From NCBI GenBank assembly GCA_947453445.1, contig CANGGP010000032.1, positions 1-37,189 of the forward strand: a stretch of 37,189 nucleotides of DNA, given 5' to 3'. Below the pieces are notes generated by a model, which made no database searches, was not told the DNA's origin, and was given only the letters and a program-made list of their open reading frames with translations. Of this stretch, positions 7,779-34,793 are shown piece by piece. A program made the translations under genes and the position numbers. This stretch comes from Sphingobacteriaceae bacterium (GTDB lineage: Bacteria; Bacteroidota; Bacteroidia; B-17B0; Aurantibacillaceae). Positions within the stretch are counted from its first letter, which is position 1. Every line of letters begins with the position of its first letter.

Positions 7779-10700
7779 ATGTCGAAACCCAACAAATACC
7801 TTTGTTTTGTAATTTTCTTCGTTTGCACCTTGATGGTTCAAAAGGCGCAAAACACTTTTACTTTTACCAATGCCGGCGCAACAGGCAGTGTGGGACCATC
7901 ACAAACCATGGTCAATAACACGTATTCAAATACCGCCTTAAATGGATTGGTTACCGTTTCATTGGGTATTCAATCTTTTACAATTCCAAGCACGGGCAAT
8001 TATCGCATTGAGGCAGTGGGCGCGGCCGGCGGCACGCAATCATATTCACCGGGTTATCCCGGCGGTTTAGGTGCTTCTATGCGTGGTGAATTTACATTTA
8101 CAGCAGGAACAGTTTTAAAAATTTTGGTTGGTCAAAAAGGTGAAGATACGCGGGTGAGCACAGAAGACAATGCCGCGCCGGGAGGTGGAGGAGGTTCCTT
8201 TGTTTACATAAGTCCAAGCAGTTCAGTACCACTGATAGCAGCAGGTGGCGGTGGCGGTGGCGGAAGAAATGCGGGTGCATTGCACGCTTCAATTACATCA
8301 AGCGCCAATTGGGCATTCAGTGGCGGTGCCGGTGGTACAGGCGGCAATGGCGGGCAATATAATTTTGCGGGTTTAACCTATTATGCCGGTGCGGGGGCAG
8401 GTTGGTTAACCGATGGTACCAGCGGAGGAACGGCCACCTTGTATTCGAATGTGCCGGGTTCTTCGGGTGCAGGCGGAGGACGCTGTCCACAAAACGGCGG
8501 ACTTGGAGGCATTCGATACAATGATGGTTTTGATGAAGGTGGTGATGGTGGATTTGGCGGTGGTGGTGGCGGTGGCTCAGATAATATGGGTACCGGCGGC
8601 GGCGGCGGATTTTCAGGCGGCGGTGGCGGTAATGGTGGCAGCACAACGTCCGGCAATCCTACAGGTGGCGGTGGCGGTTCATACAATGGCGGAATTAACC
8701 AAGTGAATACAGCCAGTGTAAACGCAGGTCATGGTTATGTGATTATTACGCGACTGTCGGGTGTTAACTTAACACAAACTGGCATCATTAACTGTTATGG
8801 TCAATTAAGCGGTGCTTTAACGGCCTCAGCATCCGGCGGTACCGGACCATATACTTATTCTTGGTCACCGGGTGGATCAACGGCTACTTCCATTACAGGA
8901 CTTGGAGCAGGCACCTATACTTGCAGGGCCACCGATGCAGCGTCGGTGGTATATACCTCAACATTTGTGATTACACAACCGGCACCTTTAACATCAAGCA
9001 TAAGTGCACAAGTCAATAATATTTGTAGTGGTGGTGTTACCGGTGCAGCAACAGTGGCGGCTTATGGCGGCACTTCACCATATTCATACACCTGGTCGCC
9101 GGGCGGTGGATTTTCTGCAAGCGCAAATAATTTGGCCACGGGCACTTATACTGTGAGTATTAAAGATGTAAATAATTGCAGCAGTTCGAGTACCCTTAGT
9201 ATCACCCAACCTGCACCAATCAATGTGGTTGCTTTTGCTATTAATTCAACAGTTTGTGCCGGCAATACTAGTACTTTAATTGCGGCCGGTGCATTAACCT
9301 ATTCTTGGTCGGGCGGTGTGATTAACGGTGTTGGTTTTGCGCCTGTGGCCACCGGAGTATATTCAGTGATTGGCACCGATGCCAACGGTTGCACAGGTAC
9401 CAACACAGTGGCAATAACAGTTAACCCGGCGCCAAGTATGAGTGTGAGTGGACCAAATTCAGTTTGTTCAGGCAGCGCCATTACATTAAGTGCAAGTGGA
9501 GCCAATTCATACAGTTGGAGTACCGGTTCTACTGCCAGCGCAATTTTTGTTGCCCCAACAAGCGCAAGTTCATATACCGCTTATGGATTTAATACATTTG
9601 GATGTTCTTCGTCAATGGTGAAAAGCATCAATGTGTTGAGTTTACCAAGTGTGTCGGCGAGTATCAGTAGCAATAGTATTTGTGCGGGATATCCTGTACT
9701 GGCATTTGCCTCAGGTGCAAATACCTACAGTTGGAGTGGTGGGGTACAGAATGGCGTGGCCTTTACGCCAAGTGTGACCACTACCTATACTTTAACCGGA
9801 ACGGATTTAAATGCTTGTTCTAATTATTTCATCACAACGGTTAGCATCACACCGTCGCCTGTTATCAGTATTTCAGGCAACACGATTGTATGTCCGGGCA
9901 ATGCAGTTAGTTTAAGTGCATCGGGCGCAAATTCTTATACATGGAGCACAGGTTCAACAGCTACGGGGATTTCAGTGAGTCCAAGCGCCACAACAGTTTA
10001 TTCAATTACAGGCATGAATGCATCAGGTTGTACCAGCAATGCCTTTAAAACCATTGTTGTGAGTGCTTTACCCACTGTATCCATTTCAGCTACCAACACA
10101 TCGGTGTGTGATGGTGTGCCGGTTACATTGGTAGCAGTTGGTGGTGCTTCAACCTATACTTGGTTGCCAATGAATGTCAATCCATTGTATGTAACGGTTA
10201 CGCCAAGCATTAACACAACTTATACCTTATTGGCTGCAAATGCTGCAGGATGCAGTAATTCAACATCCATCTTAATTGGTGTGAATGCGGCACCAAATAT
10301 TTCTGTTAGCAGTCCTACTTCCATTTGTTCGGGTTATGCATTAAACATGTCGGCTAGCGGCGCTGTTAGCTATACATGGAACACCGGTGCCACCACAGCC
10401 AATGTGGCCTTGAATCCAACAGCCAGCGCAGTTTATACGGTTGTTGGAACAGGCAGTAACGGTTGTTTAAAAACCACCTATCAATCGGTTGTGGTAGATC
10501 CATTGCCTATTGTTGGCGCCGGAAGCACTTCATCAGTTTTGTGTTTGGGAAGTCAAGTGAGTTTAATCGGCAGCGGCGCCACTACTTATACTTGGTTACC
10601 AATGAATACTGTTGGGGCATTTGTAAATGTTAGTCCAACTTCGAATTCAACTTATACAGTAACAGGAAAAAATAATTCAGGTTGTACCAATACGGCTGTG

Positions 10701-12269
10701 GTGTCTGTCACCGTAAATCCATTGCCGGTATTAAGTGTGAATGGGGCAGGCAACTTGTGTGCCGGTAACAGCAGCACGCTTGTTGTAAGCGGCGCCAATA
10801 CCTACACTTGGAGCAATTCAACAAATGCCGCAAGTGTAGTGGTTAGTCCTGCTCTCAGCACCACATTTGTTGTGAGCGGAACTGCAGCGAACGGTTGTGT
10901 GGGCAGCACCAATGCCGCGGTAAATGTGTTGGCCTTGCCAAATATAACTGTTATTGGAACCAATAGTGTTTGCGCAGGTTCGCCAGCCATTCTGGTGGCT
11001 GGGGGTGCAAACAATTATGTGTGGAGCATTGGTGGAAACACGCCAAGTATAAGTATTAATCCTACAGTTAGCACTGCATACATCGTTACAGGAACAGGCT
11101 CCAACGGTTGTACAGCTATTTTAAGCGGCACCATTGTGGTTGAAGCATTACCAAATGTGGCGGCTACATCCTCTTCGAGTATGGTTTGTTCAGGCGCGGC
11201 GGTTACACTCATTGGCTCAGGTGCCAATACCTATACTTGGTTGCCGGTGAATTCAAATGCAGCTTTAAGCACAGTTAATCCAATTGCTTCAACTACCTAC
11301 ACGCTCATTGGAAAAACCTTAAGTGCTTGTTCTAATTCTACCACAGTGAATATCGCAGTTTCGCAATCGCCTATTTTAAGTATTAGTGGTAATACAAGTA
11401 TTTGTAATGGTCAAACTGCTACGCTTACTGCAAGCGGCGCCAATACTTATACCTGGAATAACGCAGCAAATGCAGCAGTTATCAATGTTTCGCCTGCTTC
11501 AACAAGCAGCTATGTGGTGTATGGTAGTAATTCTGCCGGTTGTATTGGTAGCGCCAACTTCCCTGTTACAGTGTTTGCTTTACCTATATTAAGTATTAGC
11601 GGCAGCACGGCTGTGTGTGCCGGCTCAAGCGGAACATTGCTGGCCGCCGGGGCAAGCACTTATTCATGGAGCACTTCTTCTAATAGTACAAGTGTGAGCA
11701 TTAATCCAACCACATCAAGTGTTTATTCTTTGAACGGAACCAGTGCCAACAATTGTAGTGCCTCGGCTTCGGTAATGGTGATTGTGAATGCCTTGCCATC
11801 CATCACCATCAATGCAAGCAAAACAAGCATTTGCAAAGGTGAAAGTTTAGAACTTAGAGCAAACGGTGGTACCAATTATTTATGGAGTGAAGGCAGCCAA
11901 TTAAATGCCATCAATGTGAGTCCAACAGTAAACACCACATATACCGTAAGCGGACAAGGCCCTAATAATTGTTCTAATTCAGCTGTGATTAGTGTGTCAG
12001 TTTCTGAATGTACAGGATTAAGTGCCTATGCTGCAAAATCAACAAGCTTGCTCATTTATCCAAATCCAAGTGCAGGCAATATTAAATTGAATGCTTCTGA
12101 AACGCTTGATTTAATTTTGGTGAACAATTTAGGGCAATGCATCCAAAAAATTCGACTCAATGAACAAAATCAATTCGAAATGCAAGTGACAGAACTTGCC
12201 AAGGGTGTGTATTTTGTGATTGGGAACAATGACGGAAAGAACATCAAACAAAAAGTCATTATACAATAA
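7779..12269 (+). CDS. T9SS-secreted surface protein with ALK-like glycine-rich domain, SprB repeats and 13 Ig-like repeats
   Basis: This 1496-residue protein is predicted to be secreted by T9SS and attached to, or released from, the cell surface. After a signal peptide (to about residue 23), residues 27-326 form a glycine-rich domain whose ordered motifs (GPSQ, GIQSFTIPSTGNYRIEAVGA, KILVGQKGED, GGGGGSFVYI, PLIAAGGGGG, AGHGYVII) follow the glycine-rich ectodomain of receptor kinases ALK/LTK as I remember it (Pfam Gly_rich, PF12810). Residues 330-480 are two SprB-type repeats (SGGTGPYTYSWSPGG; GGTSPYSYTWSPGGG). Residues 481 to about 1412 are thirteen Ig-like repeats of about 71 residues, each with a cysteine near its start and one near its end. 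Residues 1427-1496 are a type A sorting domain beginning YPNPSAGNIKL and ending KQKVIIQ. Adhesion or matrix building is the likely role, by inference. It is a single-gene unit ending at a strong terminator. Confidence 0.93.
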   Translation: MSKPNKYLCFVIFFVCTLMVQKAQNTFTFTNAGATGSVGPSQTMVNNTYSNTALNGLVTVSLGIQSFTIPSTGNYRIEAVGAAGGTQSYSPGYPGGLGASMRGEFTFTAGTVLKILVGQKGEDTRVSTEDNAAPGGGGGSFVYISPSSSVPLIAAGGGGGGGRNAGALHASITSSANWAFSGGAGGTGGNGGQYNFAGLTYYAGAGAGWLTDGTSGGTATLYSNVPGSSGAGGGRCPQNGGLGGIRYNDGFDEGGDGGFGGGGGGGSDNMGTGGGGGFSGGGGGNGGSTTSGNPTGGGGGSYNGGINQVNTASVNAGHGYVIITRLSGVNLTQTGIINCYGQLSGALTASASGGTGPYTYSWSPGGSTATSITGLGAGTYTCRATDAASVVYTSTFVITQPAPLTSSISAQVNNICSGGVTGAATVAAYGGTSPYSYTWSPGGGFSASANNLATGTYTVSIKDVNNCSSSSTLSITQPAPINVVAFAINSTVCAGNTSTLIAAGALTYSWSGGVINGVGFAPVATGVYSVIGTDANGCTGTNTVAITVNPAPSMSVSGPNSVCSGSAITLSASGANSYSWSTGSTASAIFVAPTSASSYTAYGFNTFGCSSSMVKSINVLSLPSVSASISSNSICAGYPVLAFASGANTYSWSGGVQNGVAFTPSVTTTYTLTGTDLNACSNYFITTVSITPSPVISISGNTIVCPGNAVSLSASGANSYTWSTGSTATGISVSPSATTVYSITGMNASGCTSNAFKTIVVSALPTVSISATNTSVCDGVPVTLVAVGGASTYTWLPMNVNPLYVTVTPSINTTYTLLAANAAGCSNSTSILIGVNAAPNISVSSPTSICSGYALNMSASGAVSYTWNTGATTANVALNPTASAVYTVVGTGSNGCLKTTYQSVVVDPLPIVGAGSTSSVLCLGSQVSLIGSGATTYTWLPMNTVGAFVNVSPTSNSTYTVTGKNNSGCTNTAVVSVTVNPLPVLSVNGAGNLCAGNSSTLVVSGANTYTWSNSTNAASVVVSPALSTTFVVSGTAANGCVGSTNAAVNVLALPNITVIGTNSVCAGSPAILVAGGANNYVWSIGGNTPSISINPTVSTAYIVTGTGSNGCTAILSGTIVVEALPNVAATSSSSMVCSGAAVTLIGSGANTYTWLPVNSNAALSTVNPIASTTYTLIGKTLSACSNSTTVNIAVSQSPILSISGNTSICNGQTATLTASGANTYTWNNAANAAVINVSPASTSSYVVYGSNSAGCIGSANFPVTVFALPILSISGSTAVCAGSSGTLLAAGASTYSWSTSSNSTSVSINPTTSSVYSLNGTSANNCSASASVMVIVNALPSITINASKTSICKGESLELRANGGTNYLWSEGSQLNAINVSPTVNTTYTVSGQGPNNCSNSAVISVSVSECTGLSAYAAKSTSLLIYPNPSAGNIKLNASETLDLILVNNLGQCIQKIRLNEQNQFEMQVTELAKGVYFVIGNNDGKNIKQKVIIQ

Positions 12270-28569: not shown

Positions 28570-31500
28570 TTAACGCATTATGACCATTTTACCGAAGTCC
28601 TTCATCATGTAAGTATCGGCGCCACTGGCATTTTTTTGCACATCCTGCCCGTTTAATTTGGTAATCACCCTGTATAAATACACTCCATTGGCCAATTTAT
28701 CGCCATAGTTGTCTTTTCCGTCCCATGCAAAATCGGTAATGTTACGACCAATGTGCAAATTACCCAATTCGCCGCGGGTTATTTCACGCACTATTTTGCC
28801 ACTGATGGTCATAATTTGAATGGTAAACACTTCAGGAATTTCGCTGCCTGTAAGTGTAAACACAAATCGTGTGGCGGTTGAAAATGGATTTGGATAGTTT
28901 AAAACTCCTGTAATGCTCGGTTGATTGTTTACTTCAAAATCAATTTGGAAATCCTTAGCACCCGAAGCATTGTTGCTGCGGTCTTTGGCCTTCACAAACA
29001 AAGTATAACGACCATCGGTAACCAAATTGGGATTAAATAAAATACTGGCATTGTTATTTGGTAAGTTTGCAGGATTAAATTCTAAGTCCCGCGCAAAATA
29101 AACGGCTTGGGCAGTACTTTGATTTGGGGCTTTTAATGAAATTTTAAATGATGAAGTATCATTGAGGGCCAAGAATTTATTTTCATCTTTTAAGCTGATT
29201 AAAATGTTTGGTTTAGCAGATACTATGTCGCCATTTAAAATGCGAACACCATCAAAAGTCACATCCAATAATGGATTGGTGACATCTTTACTAACAACAA
29301 AAGGATAACGGCCGATGTTGTTAAACTGGTATTGTTCGGCTTGGTATTTTAATTGGTTGAGAGGGTTCACATTAATCCACAATGCGTTTTCGCCATTTAA
29401 TTGATATGAATTTACACGCAATGTATCAATCAACACTTCACCAGGTAAAAATGGTTTGCGCGTATATTTTGTCGGCAAACTTAATTTATTGTGTTGCTTG
29501 TCTTCAATCCAATAACTAATCATTAAGCTGTCTTGAAAATTTTTCACCCCAATGTTTTCAATCGGAAAACGGAAAGTCACATTGTCGCCTTCTTGCAAAT
29601 TATCGTTGATGCTGGCAAAACCTTTTAGCGGATTGATGGCACATTCAGGGGCTTCATCGTATAACACTTGCCAATAGCGGAGTTGAGGAGCTGTTAAATT
29701 TTTACTGTCTTTTATTTGGGCAACCAATTTTAAGTAAGGGTATTTAGAAGCATTGGCATAACGACTCAAATCCAAAATATTTAAGCTGTCTTCCTTAAAA
29801 GTCACCAGCGAGTCGTATCTACCTAATCCATTTAATCCAAATACGCTAATCAAAGTTGTATCACCTTTACTTTTGTCTATACCGCGAACCGACCAATGCA
29901 AGCTTTTCCAATTATTCGAAGGACCGATAATTTCGGAACTCAAATAACCGGAACTCCATTTGGTTTGAATGATATCGTTTTGACTAATTGTATCGCGGTC
30001 GTTTTTACCGATGGTTTCATGCGCTTCTCCAATTCGCATTCCTTTTCTACCAAAGAAAATATAGGGCAATGAATCAGGTGTGCTTCGCATGTTTTTTACG
30101 CCTAAACTTTCAAAAGCAGAATAAAGCGCATTGCTATAGGCAGTGTAATATGGGTAGTATTTTAATGTCGGTGCCGCATCATACATCACCGAATAACCCA
30201 ACACATATTTTCCATTTGGAATTGAATTTAAAAAATTAAGGATATCACGTTTGTATTTTGATGAATAGTATGGGGTGTTTGCACCCCAGCCACCAAAAGT
30301 ATATACCCTTAGTGTTGAATTATCATAACAAACTGAATTGCCATATTGACCGAAGCCTGCTTGAGGATAAGTTAAGCTTCTTACAAAATCGGGTTGGTTG
30401 CTGATTGAATCAAAAACGGCGAAATTCCAAGCTGCAACTAAACACGGTGTATCGTCCATTTTATTGGAGTTGAAGTAATATGAAACTTTTGGAAAATCGA
30501 TCATGGTTCTGCAAACCAAATTCCGTGTTACAATAGAATTGATTGAATTATTAAATTCAAAGATTCTTTGTTTTTTATTGTAATTGATAAAACTGAAATT
30601 GTCGTTTTTAAATTGGTGGAAATGTGATTGGGCCCAGCCTCTCTGTGTGCCAATTGTTTGAAAAGAACTTTCACGCCAGTTATAATAACCGTTCGCACCA
30701 ACGCTATCTTTACTCACGCGCCAAAAATACACGGTGCTGTCGGCCATTGGTAAATTTACTTCCCATTCTAAAACCCCGCCTTTGCTGCTAATGAGGTTGG
30801 ATTGCAGCGGATTCGTAAAGGCATCACAGGTATCGAGTTGAAAGCGGTAATTGTAAGTGGTACAAAAAGGATCAGTGGTTGAAGCCTTCAAAGTAATTTT
30901 GTTGGTTTTTGGCACCACCGCATATTTATAAGGGTAAACAGGGAAAATATCACCGCCGGGAATAAACAAACTTATTTTCCCAAGGCTGTTATTATTGCTT
31001 TCGTTGAGCTCAGCAATTTTATTTTGATAATCTAAACTCACATCAAATTCATTTACACCAAAACCGCGTTTAAAATCAATGGCGGTGTAAAAACTCAAAG
31101 TGTCTCTGTTTAACGGAGCCAACACTTTTTTAATGAAAGTCAATGTATCGCCATTCGGAAAATAACGTCGGATGCGTATGCCCAAGGTATCGTGAATGGC
31201 CTTGCCGGTGTTAATGCTCACCACTTTTATACCAATAGAATCGGTGTATTTGTTTAAATTAAAATTAACGTTGTAATTTTTTAAAATATAATCGGGTTTG
31301 TTGCCGGGGTAAATTTTAATGGCCGGATCACCATGTAAAATCATGTTTACCGATAACCATCGCAAGGTTGAATCACTGGTTTTGTTGGTTTGTTTAATGG
31401 CTTCTTGCACCACATCACCAATGCCTTGCCCATATTTGCTGCCTGCCAATGCCGTGTAAAAGTGATGCGAGAACTGGTACAAATAAACATCAATGCCATA

Positions 31501-33654
31501 AGAGTTGGTCGACAAAAATCCAATGGCACCTTTTTTATCGGTGAACAAAAAATTTTCGCTCACTGATTTAATGACATTTAAATTGTTTGGAATAAATATT
31601 TCACCGGCATGGCACGAATTACCCAATACAAAAGGATAACGGCTTTGGTTGTTGTACTTGCTTGGGTCGTCGGCCCCTTGGTCAAATCCCGATGCACTGC
31701 CATGGCCGAAAAAGTTAATGAGTGATGCCCCTGCATTAATGATGCGGTAAATGCTGTCGTTAATGTCGGTTTGTATTGGCGCCGTGGTGTTTTTATTAAA
31801 GGTGTAAACCTTGGCCCCAAACAGCGTGTCTCTGGCAATATCGCCCAATTCGCTCATGTAGCGCCCAAGTGTTTTATTCAAAGCATCATCGTCGCCTCCC
31901 ACAAAATGCAACACTTTTTTCTTCCAAGCTGCTGTATCAATGCTTTCTCTTTCTTTTACTTTGTTTAAATAGATGTTGAGTTCAGCATTGTTGGTGGCAG
32001 CAACACGCCCAAGTGGAATTTCAGGTACATAAATTTCTTGGTTGTTTTTACTTAATGCCGCACTCAACATGGCATCGGCACTTTGAATACCAAAGGTTGG
32101 AATTAAATTTTGTACTTGGTTGCCTGAACCCGAACCCAAATCTTCGTAACGCACACCTTTGCCCAACAATAAAATGTATTTGGGTTTGCTGCTTAAACTG
32201 TCGTTTAAAAATTTAAAGAAATTGCGCAAGGCAGCAGGATGACGTGGTACACCAAAAGCAAACTGTTCGTACAAACGATCCACATCAGCCATGATCACAT
32301 TGTATGAACCACCTTGCGGACTCTCTCTGTATGTTTTATAATCATTGGATGCGCTCGCCAATTTTTGATTCATCACCATCACATATGGATTGTTGAGGGT
32401 TGATGTATTGTACTTGCTGTAATAACCATTGTTACCCGCGTTATAAAGCTGTTTTACTTTAATAAATGTTGAGTCTCCGCCAATCACACAGGCTTTTTGT
32501 CCGCCGCCATTCGGAATAATAGCACGAATGGTATTGCCGGCAATTTTTGTAACAATGCGACGACCGTTGGTTAAATCATACAAAATGCATTCGCTTGAAT
32601 TCGATAAATTCAAGGCATTGAATCGGTGAAAATGTTTAGAAGCACTTACTGCATCCAAGGCATTAAAACGAAAAAAAGTCGCATTGTTAAAGTTCAACAT
32701 GCGGGGATAAGTCATCTCCAAATAACCAATAAAAGTAAATTGCCTCAAGCCGGGGTTAAACGACATGGGCACACAACTAAAAGTAAAATTTGAATTTTGA
32801 CCTATGCTGCGTACATCTACGGTGTTGGTAATTTTAAATGACATGCGTCCTTTATAGCTTGTATCGGCAAGGGTTTGAGGCGTGTTATTTATATCCAGAT
32901 AGGTGACCAATAGATGGTGGTCTTTTTGCGGGATATCAGCCTTTGAAGTGCCTGAACCGGTAAATTGAACATGAACAGGTAAGGCAACCGACGAACTGTT
33001 ATAAGCTTGTAAATTTGAGAATGTAGAAGTGAAGATTACGGGTGTGGGACTATAATTTAAATCAATCCAAGTGTAATCGCCAAAACTTTCAGATTGAATA
33101 TAAGCCGGATCTCTGGTGTCATTGCCATCCAGTTTTAAATCGTTATAATAACTCGGCGGCGCAAATTTTGCACTGGCATAAACATAATTGGCCGAAGGGT
33201 AGGAGGCAGCACTGGTATCGGTTTCTAAAGTAAAGCGCTTGTTATTAATAGAATTGTTGAAGGTGATAAATGCATACACAGTATCACTAAATAATGATAG
33301 ATAAGGATTCTGCATATACTTGATATTGGTGTATACCAGCGAATCAATGGCGCGCATATTGGGGTCGGCATAAAACTCCAAATAATCACCCGTGTTTATT
33401 TTGTTATCTGCATCACCTTTAAAATAAATGCTTTGTTCTTTGCCCCAAATAAATAATTGCAGGTTTTTTGGATTCAGATTGGCAAGGTTAAATTTTTGGG
33501 CCAAACAAGCTGAATCGATGCGGTAAAGGCCTTCTTTGTAAATGGGGAATTTTGCGTATTGTTGGTTGTATTTAATCCATTCGTTACAATAGGTTTGCGA
33601 CCAAGCTTTTTGGCCAAAAACAAGTACGATTAAGAGTAAAATAAATTTTTTCAC
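28570..33654 (-). CDS. porU2: Type IX secretion system C25-family sortase-like protein (PorU2-like)
   Basis: This 1694-residue protein is a C25 (gingipain-like) cysteine peptidase of the T9SS family, longer than classical PorU (about 1100-1300 residues). It begins with a signal peptide (KKFILLLIVLVFGQKAWSQ) from a GTG start that overlaps the upstream PorV-like stop by 4 nt (GTGA). The catalytic region has His651 in NFFGHGSASGF and Cys681 in VLGNSCHAGEI. Long beta-rich segments follow, including two CARDB-like stretches (ELNESNNNS; LKYQAEQYQFNN). The last 110 residues are a FlgD-like sorting domain (NYPNPFS, then WDGKDNYGDKLANGVYLYR). PorU-type enzymes cut off the cargo C-terminal domain and attach A-LPS at the surface. 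I recall the pairing with PorV2 from other Bacteroidota; whether this copy is the main or a second sortase cannot be told here. Confidence 0.88.
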   Translation of the reverse strand: MKKFILLLIVLVFGQKAWSQTYCNEWIKYNQQYAKFPIYKEGLYRIDSACLAQKFNLANLNPKNLQLFIWGKEQSIYFKGDADNKINTGDYLEFYADPNMRAIDSLVYTNIKYMQNPYLSLFSDTVYAFITFNNSINNKRFTLETDTSAASYPSANYVYASAKFAPPSYYNDLKLDGNDTRDPAYIQSESFGDYTWIDLNYSPTPVIFTSTFSNLQAYNSSSVALPVHVQFTGSGTSKADIPQKDHHLLVTYLDINNTPQTLADTSYKGRMSFKITNTVDVRSIGQNSNFTFSCVPMSFNPGLRQFTFIGYLEMTYPRMLNFNNATFFRFNALDAVSASKHFHRFNALNLSNSSECILYDLTNGRRIVTKIAGNTIRAIIPNGGGQKACVIGGDSTFIKVKQLYNAGNNGYYSKYNTSTLNNPYVMVMNQKLASASNDYKTYRESPQGGSYNVIMADVDRLYEQFAFGVPRHPAALRNFFKFLNDSLSSKPKYILLLGKGVRYEDLGSGSGNQVQNLIPTFGIQSADAMLSAALSKNNQEIYVPEIPLGRVAATNNAELNIYLNKVKERESIDTAAWKKKVLHFVGGDDDALNKTLGRYMSELGDIARDTLFGAKVYTFNKNTTAPIQTDINDSIYRIINAGASLINFFGHGSASGFDQGADDPSKYNNQSRYPFVLGNSCHAGEIFIPNNLNVIKSVSENFLFTDKKGAIGFLSTNSYGIDVYLYQFSHHFYTALAGSKYGQGIGDVVQEAIKQTNKTSDSTLRWLSVNMILHGDPAIKIYPGNKPDYILKNYNVNFNLNKYTDSIGIKVVSINTGKAIHDTLGIRIRRYFPNGDTLTFIKKVLAPLNRDTLSFYTAIDFKRGFGVNEFDVSLDYQNKIAELNESNNNSLGKISLFIPGGDIFPVYPYKYAVVPKTNKITLKASTTDPFCTTYNYRFQLDTCDAFTNPLQSNLISSKGGVLEWEVNLPMADSTVYFWRVSKDSVGANGYYNWRESSFQTIGTQRGWAQSHFHQFKNDNFSFINYNKKQRIFEFNNSINSIVTRNLVCRTMIDFPKVSYYFNSNKMDDTPCLVAAWNFAVFDSISNQPDFVRSLTYPQAGFGQYGNSVCYDNSTLRVYTFGGWGANTPYYSSKYKRDILNFLNSIPNGKYVLGYSVMYDAAPTLKYYPYYTAYSNALYSAFESLGVKNMRSTPDSLPYIFFGRKGMRIGEAHETIGKNDRDTISQNDIIQTKWSSGYLSSEIIGPSNNWKSLHWSVRGIDKSKGDTTLISVFGLNGLGRYDSLVTFKEDSLNILDLSRYANASKYPYLKLVAQIKDSKNLTAPQLRYWQVLYDEAPECAINPLKGFASINDNLQEGDNVTFRFPIENIGVKNFQDSLMISYWIEDKQHNKLSLPTKYTRKPFLPGEVLIDTLRVNSYQLNGENALWINVNPLNQLKYQAEQYQFNNIGRYPFVVSKDVTNPLLDVTFDGVRILNGDIVSAKPNILISLKDENKFLALNDTSSFKISLKAPNQSTAQAVYFARDLEFNPANLPNNNASILFNPNLVTDGRYTLFVKAKDRSNNASGAKDFQIDFEVNNQPSITGVLNYPNPFSTATRFVFTLTGSEIPEVFTIQIMTISGKIVREITRGELGNLHIGRNITDFAWDGKDNYGDKLANGVYLYRVITKLNGQDVQKNASGADTYMMKDFGKMVIMR

Positions 33655-34733
33655 TTCACAACTTTTGGGTTTAATTCAATTTTTAAAGAAAAAATGTTTG
33701 AGTACAATGCTGTTGAACGATCGCCAATATCGGTTAAGGCATAATCCAATGTAAATATTTTATACTTTACGCCAACCCCAAAATTTGGTTGAGCGGTGGT
33801 GATATAAAGTGTGGCCCTATCATTTAATTGTTTTTGAATATTGCCAATACCGCCTCTTAAAAAGATGAAGTTTTTGTAGCCCAGTTCCACACCAAAGGCC
33901 GGTTCTAAATTCCAATGTTTTGAATTAATCACGGTGTTTCTTTGTCCGTCGAAGGTGTTGATTAAATCTAGTTCACCCAAAACACTCATTTTATTTTTCC
34001 AAAAGCTATATGATTTGGCTGCACCTAAAATAACCTGCGGTACTGTGATTTCGAGTGAAGAACTCGGAATTTTATTTCCAGTTTGGGCCAAAGTGGCAAT
34101 TTGTTTTTGCGTGAGATTAAAACTCCAAGCATTAAAGGTGCCGGTTACATCGCGGGCCATGGCCGCTAATTTCCAACCCTTGTAATTGTATTTGGCACCG
34201 GCATCTAAACCAAAGCCCCATGAGCCGCCAAATTCACCAATTTTACGACGGATAATTTTTACGTTACCACCAATTTCTAAACCTTTTAACTGTGGAATTT
34301 TACGGGCATAACTTAACAAGGCCGCAAAATCAACGGTGTTAAATTTGGTCACACGGTTGTAATCAATGTTGCCGTTGGCATCCACCAAATCGAGGGTGTT
34401 TGGAATATTATCCACCCCAAAACGAATAATTGAAATACCCGCAACGCTATTGCTGTCGATGCGTTTCGAGGCCCCCAAATAATCGTATTTGGCAATGCCT
34501 GCAAAATACTCGGCATGCATTAAACCCAATTCTAAATCATTTTTTTGTTTTAACAATCCCGCCGGATTCCAATAGCCCGATTGCACACCTTCCACCGAAG
34601 CCACGTTGGCATTGCCCATACCCAAAGCACGGGCACCTACACCTATATTCAAAAATTCATTACTGTATTTGCGGTTTTGTGAAATCGCAAAAAGCGATAA
34701 AAGACTAAATACCAGAAAAATTATTCTTGCCAT
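33651..34733 (-). CDS. porV2: PorV/PorQ-family outer membrane barrel protein (PorV2-like)
   Basis: This predicted outer membrane beta-barrel is of the PorV family, the shuttle that carries T9SS cargo from the translocon to the sortase complex. I start it at ATG 34733, which gives a signal peptide (ARIIFLVFSLLSLFAIS then Q-N); a GTG at 34742 would add three residues. Family features include NEFLNIGVGARALGMGNANV (about residues 24-43), SGYWNPAGLL, LMHAEYFAGIAKYDYLG and the closing strands GVGVKYKIFTLDYALTDIG. Its stop overlaps the sortase start by 4 nt, so the two are co-translated. A housekeeping PorV elsewhere in the genome is likely but not seen here. Confidence 0.87.
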   Translation of the reverse strand: MARIIFLVFSLLSLFAISQNRKYSNEFLNIGVGARALGMGNANVASVEGVQSGYWNPAGLLKQKNDLELGLMHAEYFAGIAKYDYLGASKRIDSNSVAGISIIRFGVDNIPNTLDLVDANGNIDYNRVTKFNTVDFAALLSYARKIPQLKGLEIGGNVKIIRRKIGEFGGSWGFGLDAGAKYNYKGWKLAAMARDVTGTFNAWSFNLTQKQIATLAQTGNKIPSSSLEITVPQVILGAAKSYSFWKNKMSVLGELDLINTFDGQRNTVINSKHWNLEPAFGVELGYKNFIFLRGGIGNIQKQLNDRATLYITTAQPNFGVGVKYKIFTLDYALTDIGDRSTALYSNIFSLKIELNPKVVK

Positions 34734-34793
34734 AGACAGCACTAATTTAGTTAAAAAATCAATTTCTTAAGCATTTAAACGGAGCTAACTCGC

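Follow-up and report, generated by a model that had tools for sequence, protein, structure and literature searches.

An ALK/LTK-type module as the candidate adhesive head of a T9SS-type surface protein in a Sphingobacteriaceae bacterium

The window analysed here is a stretch of 37,189 nucleotides (contig CANGGP010000032.1, assembly GCA_947453445.1) from an uncultured Sphingobacteriaceae bacterium of the phylum Bacteroidota. It encodes a protein of 1496 residues whose N-terminal head (residues 27–326) is almost certainly homologous to the TNF-like plus glycine-rich (TG) module of the animal receptor kinases ALK and LTK. The protein is probably (roughly 0.65) a cell-surface adhesin that is exported by the type IX secretion system (T9SS) and grips a partner with this head. 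A sequence-only reading of the same DNA had proposed an ALK/LTK-type domain from a series of motifs. That observation is right and understated. Beyond it, the genome contains about 15 such proteins, and relatives turn up in viral contigs as well as in several bacterial phyla.

In the alignment of the head with human ALK, the proposed motifs are present and collinear. They include G-x-G-x-x-GP-x-Q, GIQ-x-x-x-(I/V)P, Y-x-I-x-x-x-GAAGG and ILVGQ-x-GED, and further polyglycine-(F/Y)V, PLI-A/I-A-GGGG, GGFGGGGGG and GHG-x-V. The head and ALK share 98 identities over 256 aligned residues. Forty-nine of the 98 are non-glycine, out of 162 positions at which neither sequence has glycine; glycine makes up 89 of the 300 residues of the head. 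When the head is searched with phmmer against all PDB chains, each of the nine distinct sequences at E ≤ 10 is ALK (3.1e-12), LTK (2.3e-06) or C. elegans scd-2 (5.6e-04). A profile of the first ~137 residues of the window domain and 26 relatives finds ALK at 6e-23, LTK at 1e-18 and scd-2 at 4e-11, and the next chain is unrelated (0.016). In a shuffle control with the ALK domain as query, the native stretches of 137 and 300 residues reach 47.2 and 44.3 bits, against 7.0 for the top-scoring of 3000 shuffled sequences. With the first 100 ALK residues as query, the real sequences score 47.9 and 45.1 bits and the best shuffle 10.3. The phmmer search, the profile and the shuffle control confirm the ALK/LTK-type domain.

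Three of 15 glycine-rich proteins in the genome match ALK: C24 (2.6e-16), the window protein (1.3e-13) and, weakly, C6c (8.6e-4). Of the remaining 12, nine appear at E 15 and three are unlisted. Several of the 12 are members of the Pfam family PF12810 (ALK_LTK_GRD) above its cut-off, for example C84 (4.3e-35), and therefore they are no strict composition control. In these searches, glycine content alone yields no ALK match, and the 12 proteins are more distant kin and not foreign to the family.

The AlphaFold2 model of the head was built from an alignment of 59 domains (A3), made up of the window domain and 58 of the 82 bacterial domains offered. Model residue 1 corresponds to protein residue 24. 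The model has a mean predicted local distance difference test score (pLDDT) of 89.6 and a predicted template modelling score of 0.91, and is weakest around model residues 171–180, 191–210 and 261–270. In Foldseek, all 21 hits at E ≤ 0.001 are ALK, LTK or scd-2 (TM-scores on the query 0.52–0.70). In VIA-align, the model superposes on LTK with Z 34.4 (2.0 Å, 251 residues, 35% identity) and on ALK with Z up to 34.0 (2.3 Å, 261 residues). Over the ALK and LTK structures together (PDB 7nx0, 7nx1, 7n00, 7lrz), Z is 32.8–34.4 and the root-mean-square deviation 2.0–2.5 Å across 250–263 residues. The superposition that the sequence-only reading had named as a check thus extends over the whole domain. 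The scd-2 superposition has Z 22.5, and the next families are the Pam3 fibre (8.8), the Bxb1 tail tip (8.7) and TNF (5.4). The head is predicted to form a jelly-roll base with a glycine lattice like that of the ALK/LTK TG module. In the model, the lattice region is poor in regular helix and strand, as would be expected of polyglycine segments.

Four glycines that have been changed in studies of ALK are kept. According to the published account (PMC4658194), ALK loses its function in Drosophila through any of four single glycine substitutions, and the ALK variants G740D, G823D, G893E and G934D were made. All four positions are glycine in the head. Positions 740 and 823 are glycine in 59/59 rows of A3 and in 48/48 rows of a second alignment, A4, which holds 42 of 54 viral domains and 6 bacterial ones. 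Position 893 is glycine in 50/59 and 37/48 rows, and position 934 in 48/59 and 38/48 rows, respectively. Unlike ALK, the head has no insert of ~27 residues after GED and lacks the cysteines C688 and C701. A crude script sorted 124 distinct bacterial starts by cysteines at these places: 14 have both, 28 the first only, 1 the second only and 81 neither. Heads with both cysteines include L222, L192, L182, L225, L188 and L227.

Taken by itself, the adhesin role of the head is fairly probable on this analysis. The T9SS tail, the long stalk and the stronger conservation of the head than of the stalk are explained most economically by an adhesive head. L056 is the closest relative that turned up within the genus; its head shares 74% identity with that of the window protein, and the aligned stalk 35–37%. 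Extended glycine-rich segments would form a lattice on the jelly-roll base, and the contact surface would consist of the lattice-end loops and the outer faces. About 13 immunoglobulin (Ig)-like repeats would keep the head away from the cell. The C-terminal sorting domain would route the protein through the T9SS and then attach it. So displayed, presumably on the cell surface, the head may grip a partner through its lattice loops. This partner, a glycan or a protein, could sit on particles or algae, on other bacteria or on siblings.

The model for such gripping would be the TNF-like plus glycine-rich tips of phage tail fibres, which are held to grip host receptors. In the parts of the literature drawn on here, Pam3 gp24, which has this domain pair, is described as a host-recognising trimer that resembles C. 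elegans ALK at 2.6 Å over 125 residues (PMC9608196). In phage TFP_Y, changes in the TNF-like plus glycine-rich domain are described as restoring sensitivity to phage. In gp38 of phages S16 and PP01, a polyglycine II lattice bears variable loops, for which receptor binding is described or proposed (PMC6851490, PMC12892980).

The head resembles the ALK/LTK TG module in its predicted jelly-roll and lattice, its collinear motifs and the four glycines. Unlike ALK and LTK, the window protein has no kinase domain in the Pfam scan, in which SprB, Por_Secre_tail and a weak Ig_7 alone are listed, and the head sits on a T9SS stalk. It shares the domain pair of Pam3 gp24 (PDB 7yfw/7ypx), which stands at the binding tip in Pam3. 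Pam3 gp24 and the Bxb1 tail tip (9d93) are far more distant from the head, with 134 and 141 residues aligned. The head also resembles gp38 in its polyglycine lattice. Unlike the head, gp38 has a beta-helix and not a TNF-like base in the portions described, and it is outside the listed fold matches, a likeness still being possible. The SprB repeats and the sorting domain are shared with SprB-type gliding adhesins and T9SS type A cargo, which the window protein departs from by the ALK-type head in front.

Several observations weigh against the adhesin reading or the homology beneath it. The gathering cut-off of PF12810 is 24.5 bits, and the whole head scores 16.5. In a six-frame search the score is 10.5 bits, and the full-length protein is unlisted at E ≤ 0.1. 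Among five phage, viral or Rhodoferax relatives, four are unmatched by PF12810 and the fifth has E 0.072. The lattice is a prediction aided by the 59-row alignment, and its model residues 196–205 have pLDDT below 50. Three ALK residues of ALKAL2 site 2 (S737, Y739 and L760, as given in PMC12017499) are E, V and R in the head, so the way in which ALK binds its own ligand does not extend to the head. As aligned, ALK and the head have the fold-bearing residues in common, and differ in the compared site-2 contacts. The ratio of nonsynonymous to synonymous substitution rates (dN/dS) of the head against L056 is ~0.09 (dS saturated, one pair), unlike that of fast-changing recognition loops. A hypervariable head under diversifying selection is not seen in this comparison. 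The low ratio speaks for an unchanging partner and against an arms race.

The PF12810 result is divided. Residues 27–163 score 41.9 bits (1.6e-10), above the cut-off, so the profile hit expected by the sequence-only reading stands for this part of the domain, while the whole stays below the cut-off. The shortfall of the whole head probably stems from bias correction. Since residues 27–163 pass while the whole head does not, full-length PF12810 is misleading as a sole test.

The strongest alternative, though an unlikely one, is that the head is mainly self-associating, with neighbouring lattices stacked into a cell-cell or biofilm layer and no foreign ligand. TNF-like folds often trimerise, and Pam3 gp24, with the same domain pair, is a trimer. 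The genome's about 15 such proteins, some of them in tandem, and the several heads within some proteins elsewhere would also fit. Against this, no helical part of the kind in question is seen by eye in the translation of the protein. An ice-binding or ice-adhesion head is very improbable. The snow flea antifreeze protein, too, contains a polyglycine lattice, and ice-binding domains are carried on long Ig-like stalks in Marinomonas. The head likewise sits on a long stalk, and the record title of one relative (L173) names Kiruna, a northern place. The record title of another (L197) names the Red Sea, and relatives lie in phage tail-fibre clusters, where ice binding makes no obvious sense. No antifreeze protein is among the listed fold matches (Foldseek, VIA-align), which counts against ice binding, a likeness still being possible. 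Receptor-like sensing, in which the head would bind a soluble signal peptide or polymer and pass its state on as ALK does, is very improbable too, and if anything slightly more so. The module is the same as in a cytokine receptor, but a kinase is not among the Pfam matches, the site-2 residues are changed, and the long Ig-like stalk and sorting tail are adhesin-like. Mere glycine composition on an unrelated bacterial protein, with the whole-head PF12810 score and the glycine content in its favour, is rejected by the relatives' profile hits, the fold superposition (Z 34), the shuffle control, the 49 non-glycine identities and the 12 of 15 glycine-rich proteins without a significant ALK match.

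A head of this type is not confined to one gene. PF12810 matches 12 places in 11 proteins of the source genome, 8 of them above the cut-off (C83, C74 and the window protein are below). Further searches add C6:67461, C124 and two at C59, which brings the total to about 15. A T9SS sorting domain is present in 10/10 paralogues scanned, and the fusion is accordingly less unusual than the sequence-only reading had supposed. A [YF]PNP motif lies near the C-terminus in 12 of the 15; the other three run off contig ends. The full ALK-type start is present in three. Tandem placement is found in the source genome (C6, C59) and in relatives (G052 C5, G048 C45, G461 C14). The paralogue G000:C124 (L252), 1903 residues and cut by the contig end, combines Kelch repeats at its N-terminus with a glycine-rich domain and six SprB stretches.

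In the genus, the 137-residue query matches 30/40 genomes, its own included (E ≤ 1e-6), and in 22 genomes the match starts at query residue 1 (rows read by eye). In a draw across the phylum, the same query matches 5/395 genomes, again with its own. In the order sample, profile A1 matches 36/87 genomes, which all belong to a single family, and PF12810 matches 21/61 genomes of the family sample. A scan of genome contigs matched 175 stretches, of which 130 were confirmed and the best 80 kept as 78 loci. These best 80 are mostly from Bacteroidota, and also from Verrucomicrobiota, Myxococcota, Pseudomonadota (Rhodoferax, Rubrivivax), Planctomycetota (Blastopirellula), Neomarinimicrobiota and Hydrogenedens, with a partial one in Sumerlaeota. 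Taxa are by record title, and most are metagenome-assembled genomes (MAGs), in which misbinning is possible. Named strains among the loci belong to Psychroflexus, Salibacter, Edaphocola, Flavobacterium and Crocinitomix. The bacterial and viral loci fetched contain 136 distinct domains. Plasmid records contain no match to the domain of relative L066. Serial ALK-type heads occur in single open reading frames (ORFs), three each in L186, L216 and L217. One ORF of L179 has six matched head stretches, two of them partial. In a Rhodoferax MAG (L209), a frame of 374 residues combines an ALK-type domain with a C-terminal IPTL-CTERM motif (1.7e-05), which reads as an ALK-type head with a different sorting signal.

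In viral contigs, at least 106 stretches among the 600 matches listed encode a relative, and 80 loci were kept. The window domain matches three of 50,697 phage records, from two phages: Synechococcus phages S-SZBM1 (two records) and S-CREM1. The domain of L066 matches none of the phage records. The S-SZBM1 protein has 291 residues. Its gene comes after a tail fibre gene, with one gene in between, and is directly followed by two genes for tail fibre assembly, the first of which matches phrog_863 (tail fiber assembly). The protein itself matches phrog_22713 and 7388, both of unknown function. PHROG 22713 is matched by three ALK-type phage or viral-contig proteins, and two of them also match 7388. 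These phage proteins share the ALK-type match, are stand-alone where scanned, and show no T9SS tail. In locus L101, a phrog_5342 tail fibre gene immediately precedes the ALK-type gene, and the ALK-type gene of L121 is one gene away from a tail-fibre-like gene. The L121 domain model (pLDDT 90.4) superposes on LTK with Z 33.5 (1.8 Å, 232 residues), and the A4 profile finds LTK at 6e-37. Several phage proteins and one Tetraselmis virus protein in BFVD are named 'receptor protein-tyrosine kinase' in UniProt, a name that is probably due to the ALK-type domain alone.

The origin of the module was compared in 96 bacterial and 45 viral starts, once near-copies, weaker matches and rows lacking the VGQ motif had been removed, with ALK and LTK as the eukaryotes. 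The window domain entered this set and the tree as its copy L046. ALK has a mean identity of 44% to the bacterial starts (5–95%: 39–49; best 52%, N-terminal ~90 residues) and 34% to the viral starts, and the bacterial starts have a mean of 54% among themselves. The mean identity of ALK to the bacterial set is below that of 95/96 bacterial rows and above that of 40/45 viral rows. The tree has 92 rows (60 bacterial, 30 viral, ALK and LTK) and 96 columns and was made by a quick search; 51/89 inner branches are unresolved. One branch, with 97 in the Shimodaira-Hasegawa-like approximate likelihood ratio test (SH-aLRT), separates 29 viral rows and one bacterial row (Crocinitomix) from 59 bacterial, two animal and one viral. 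ALK and LTK fall on the bacterial side, where they sit on a long branch beside Rubrivivax L227 (93). This placement fits a bacteria-to-animal transfer, the direction of which it does not show, as a long branch can readily be misplaced with 96 columns. The ALK/LTK ligand module may tentatively be seen as a bacterial or phage recognition head that an early animal ancestor acquired horizontally and put before a kinase, at somewhat less than even odds. As a part of the same joint and equally tentative claim, the surface partner would have been swapped for a cytokine. In a paper on the history of ALK (PMC7851593), a word find returns neither 'bacteri' nor 'horizontal' in the main text.

The head is a known domain in a new setting, and the likeness of a phage fibre to ALK is already published (PMC9608196). 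No description was found in the open literature of bacterial relatives with up to 52% N-terminal identity to ALK, or of the wide bacterial and viral kinship at the sequence level. These relatives are natural variants for telling structural from ligand-specific features of the fold, and with them the origin of the ALK ectodomain can be tested. They suggest a function for T9SS protein families and PHROGs of unknown function, and may explain the phage proteins that carry the kinase name.

The features of the window are collected in Table 1. Pfam confirms the SprB repeats and the sorting domain that had been read from the sequence. PF13573 matches two stretches (E 1.2e-11; the coordinates are for the best one), and TIGR04183 on the C-terminus scores 36.7 bits, above its cut-off of 23. 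The thirteen Ig-like repeats hold as a count of about 13 from the spacing of the Y-[ST]-W motif, two variant copies being found by eye; the Pfam Ig_7 match to the stalk is weak (E 0.05).

Table 1. Features of the window, in window coordinates
Feature	Position	Strand	Basis or remark
ORF of 1496 aa, T9SS-type surface protein with ALK-type head	7779..12269	+	translation, Pfam, TIGR04183
Signal peptide region, N-terminal (residues 1-23)	7779..7847	+	hydrophobic N-terminus seen in translation
ALK/LTK-type TG module, residues 27-326	7857..8756	+	phmmer/hmmsearch, AlphaFold2 model, superposition
TNF-like jelly-roll, main N-terminal part including GPSQ motif	7857..8174	+	model strands, ALK alignment
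Glycine-rich lattice and intervening loops, residues 133-302	8175..8684	+	scripted glycine-rich motifs, model, ALK/LTK superposition
Closing jelly-roll strands, residues 306-325, including GHGYVII	8694..8753	+	model strands 283-292 and 297-302
SprB repeat, best stretch, residues 338-366	8790..8876	+	Pfam PF13573
Stalk of ~13 Ig-like repeats, period ~72 residues	9222..12053	+	Y-[ST]-W motif spacing
T9SS type A C-terminal sorting domain	12054..12263	+	PF18962 E 4.5e-10; TIGR04183 E 3e-09
Second T9SS type A cargo, 508 aa	22255-23781	+	Pfam
ORF of 559 aa	26826-28505	-
Putative PorU2 and PorV2, side by side	28570-33654 and 33651-34742	-	~16 kb from the ALK-type cargo gene

The same window encodes a putative T9SS sortase PorU2 (NF052324, 650.9 bits) and a putative PorV2 (NF052325, 468.4 bits), both above cut-off. 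With these two, T9SS machinery is present in the genome, at least in putative form. The 559-residue ORF that adjoins PorU2 has no Pfam or NCBIfam match at E ≤ 0.001. In the second T9SS type A cargo, Pfam at E ≤ 0.001 gives the sorting tail alone. The genes adjoining the ALK-type cargo gene are MsrA, EF-P and AccA (Pfam).
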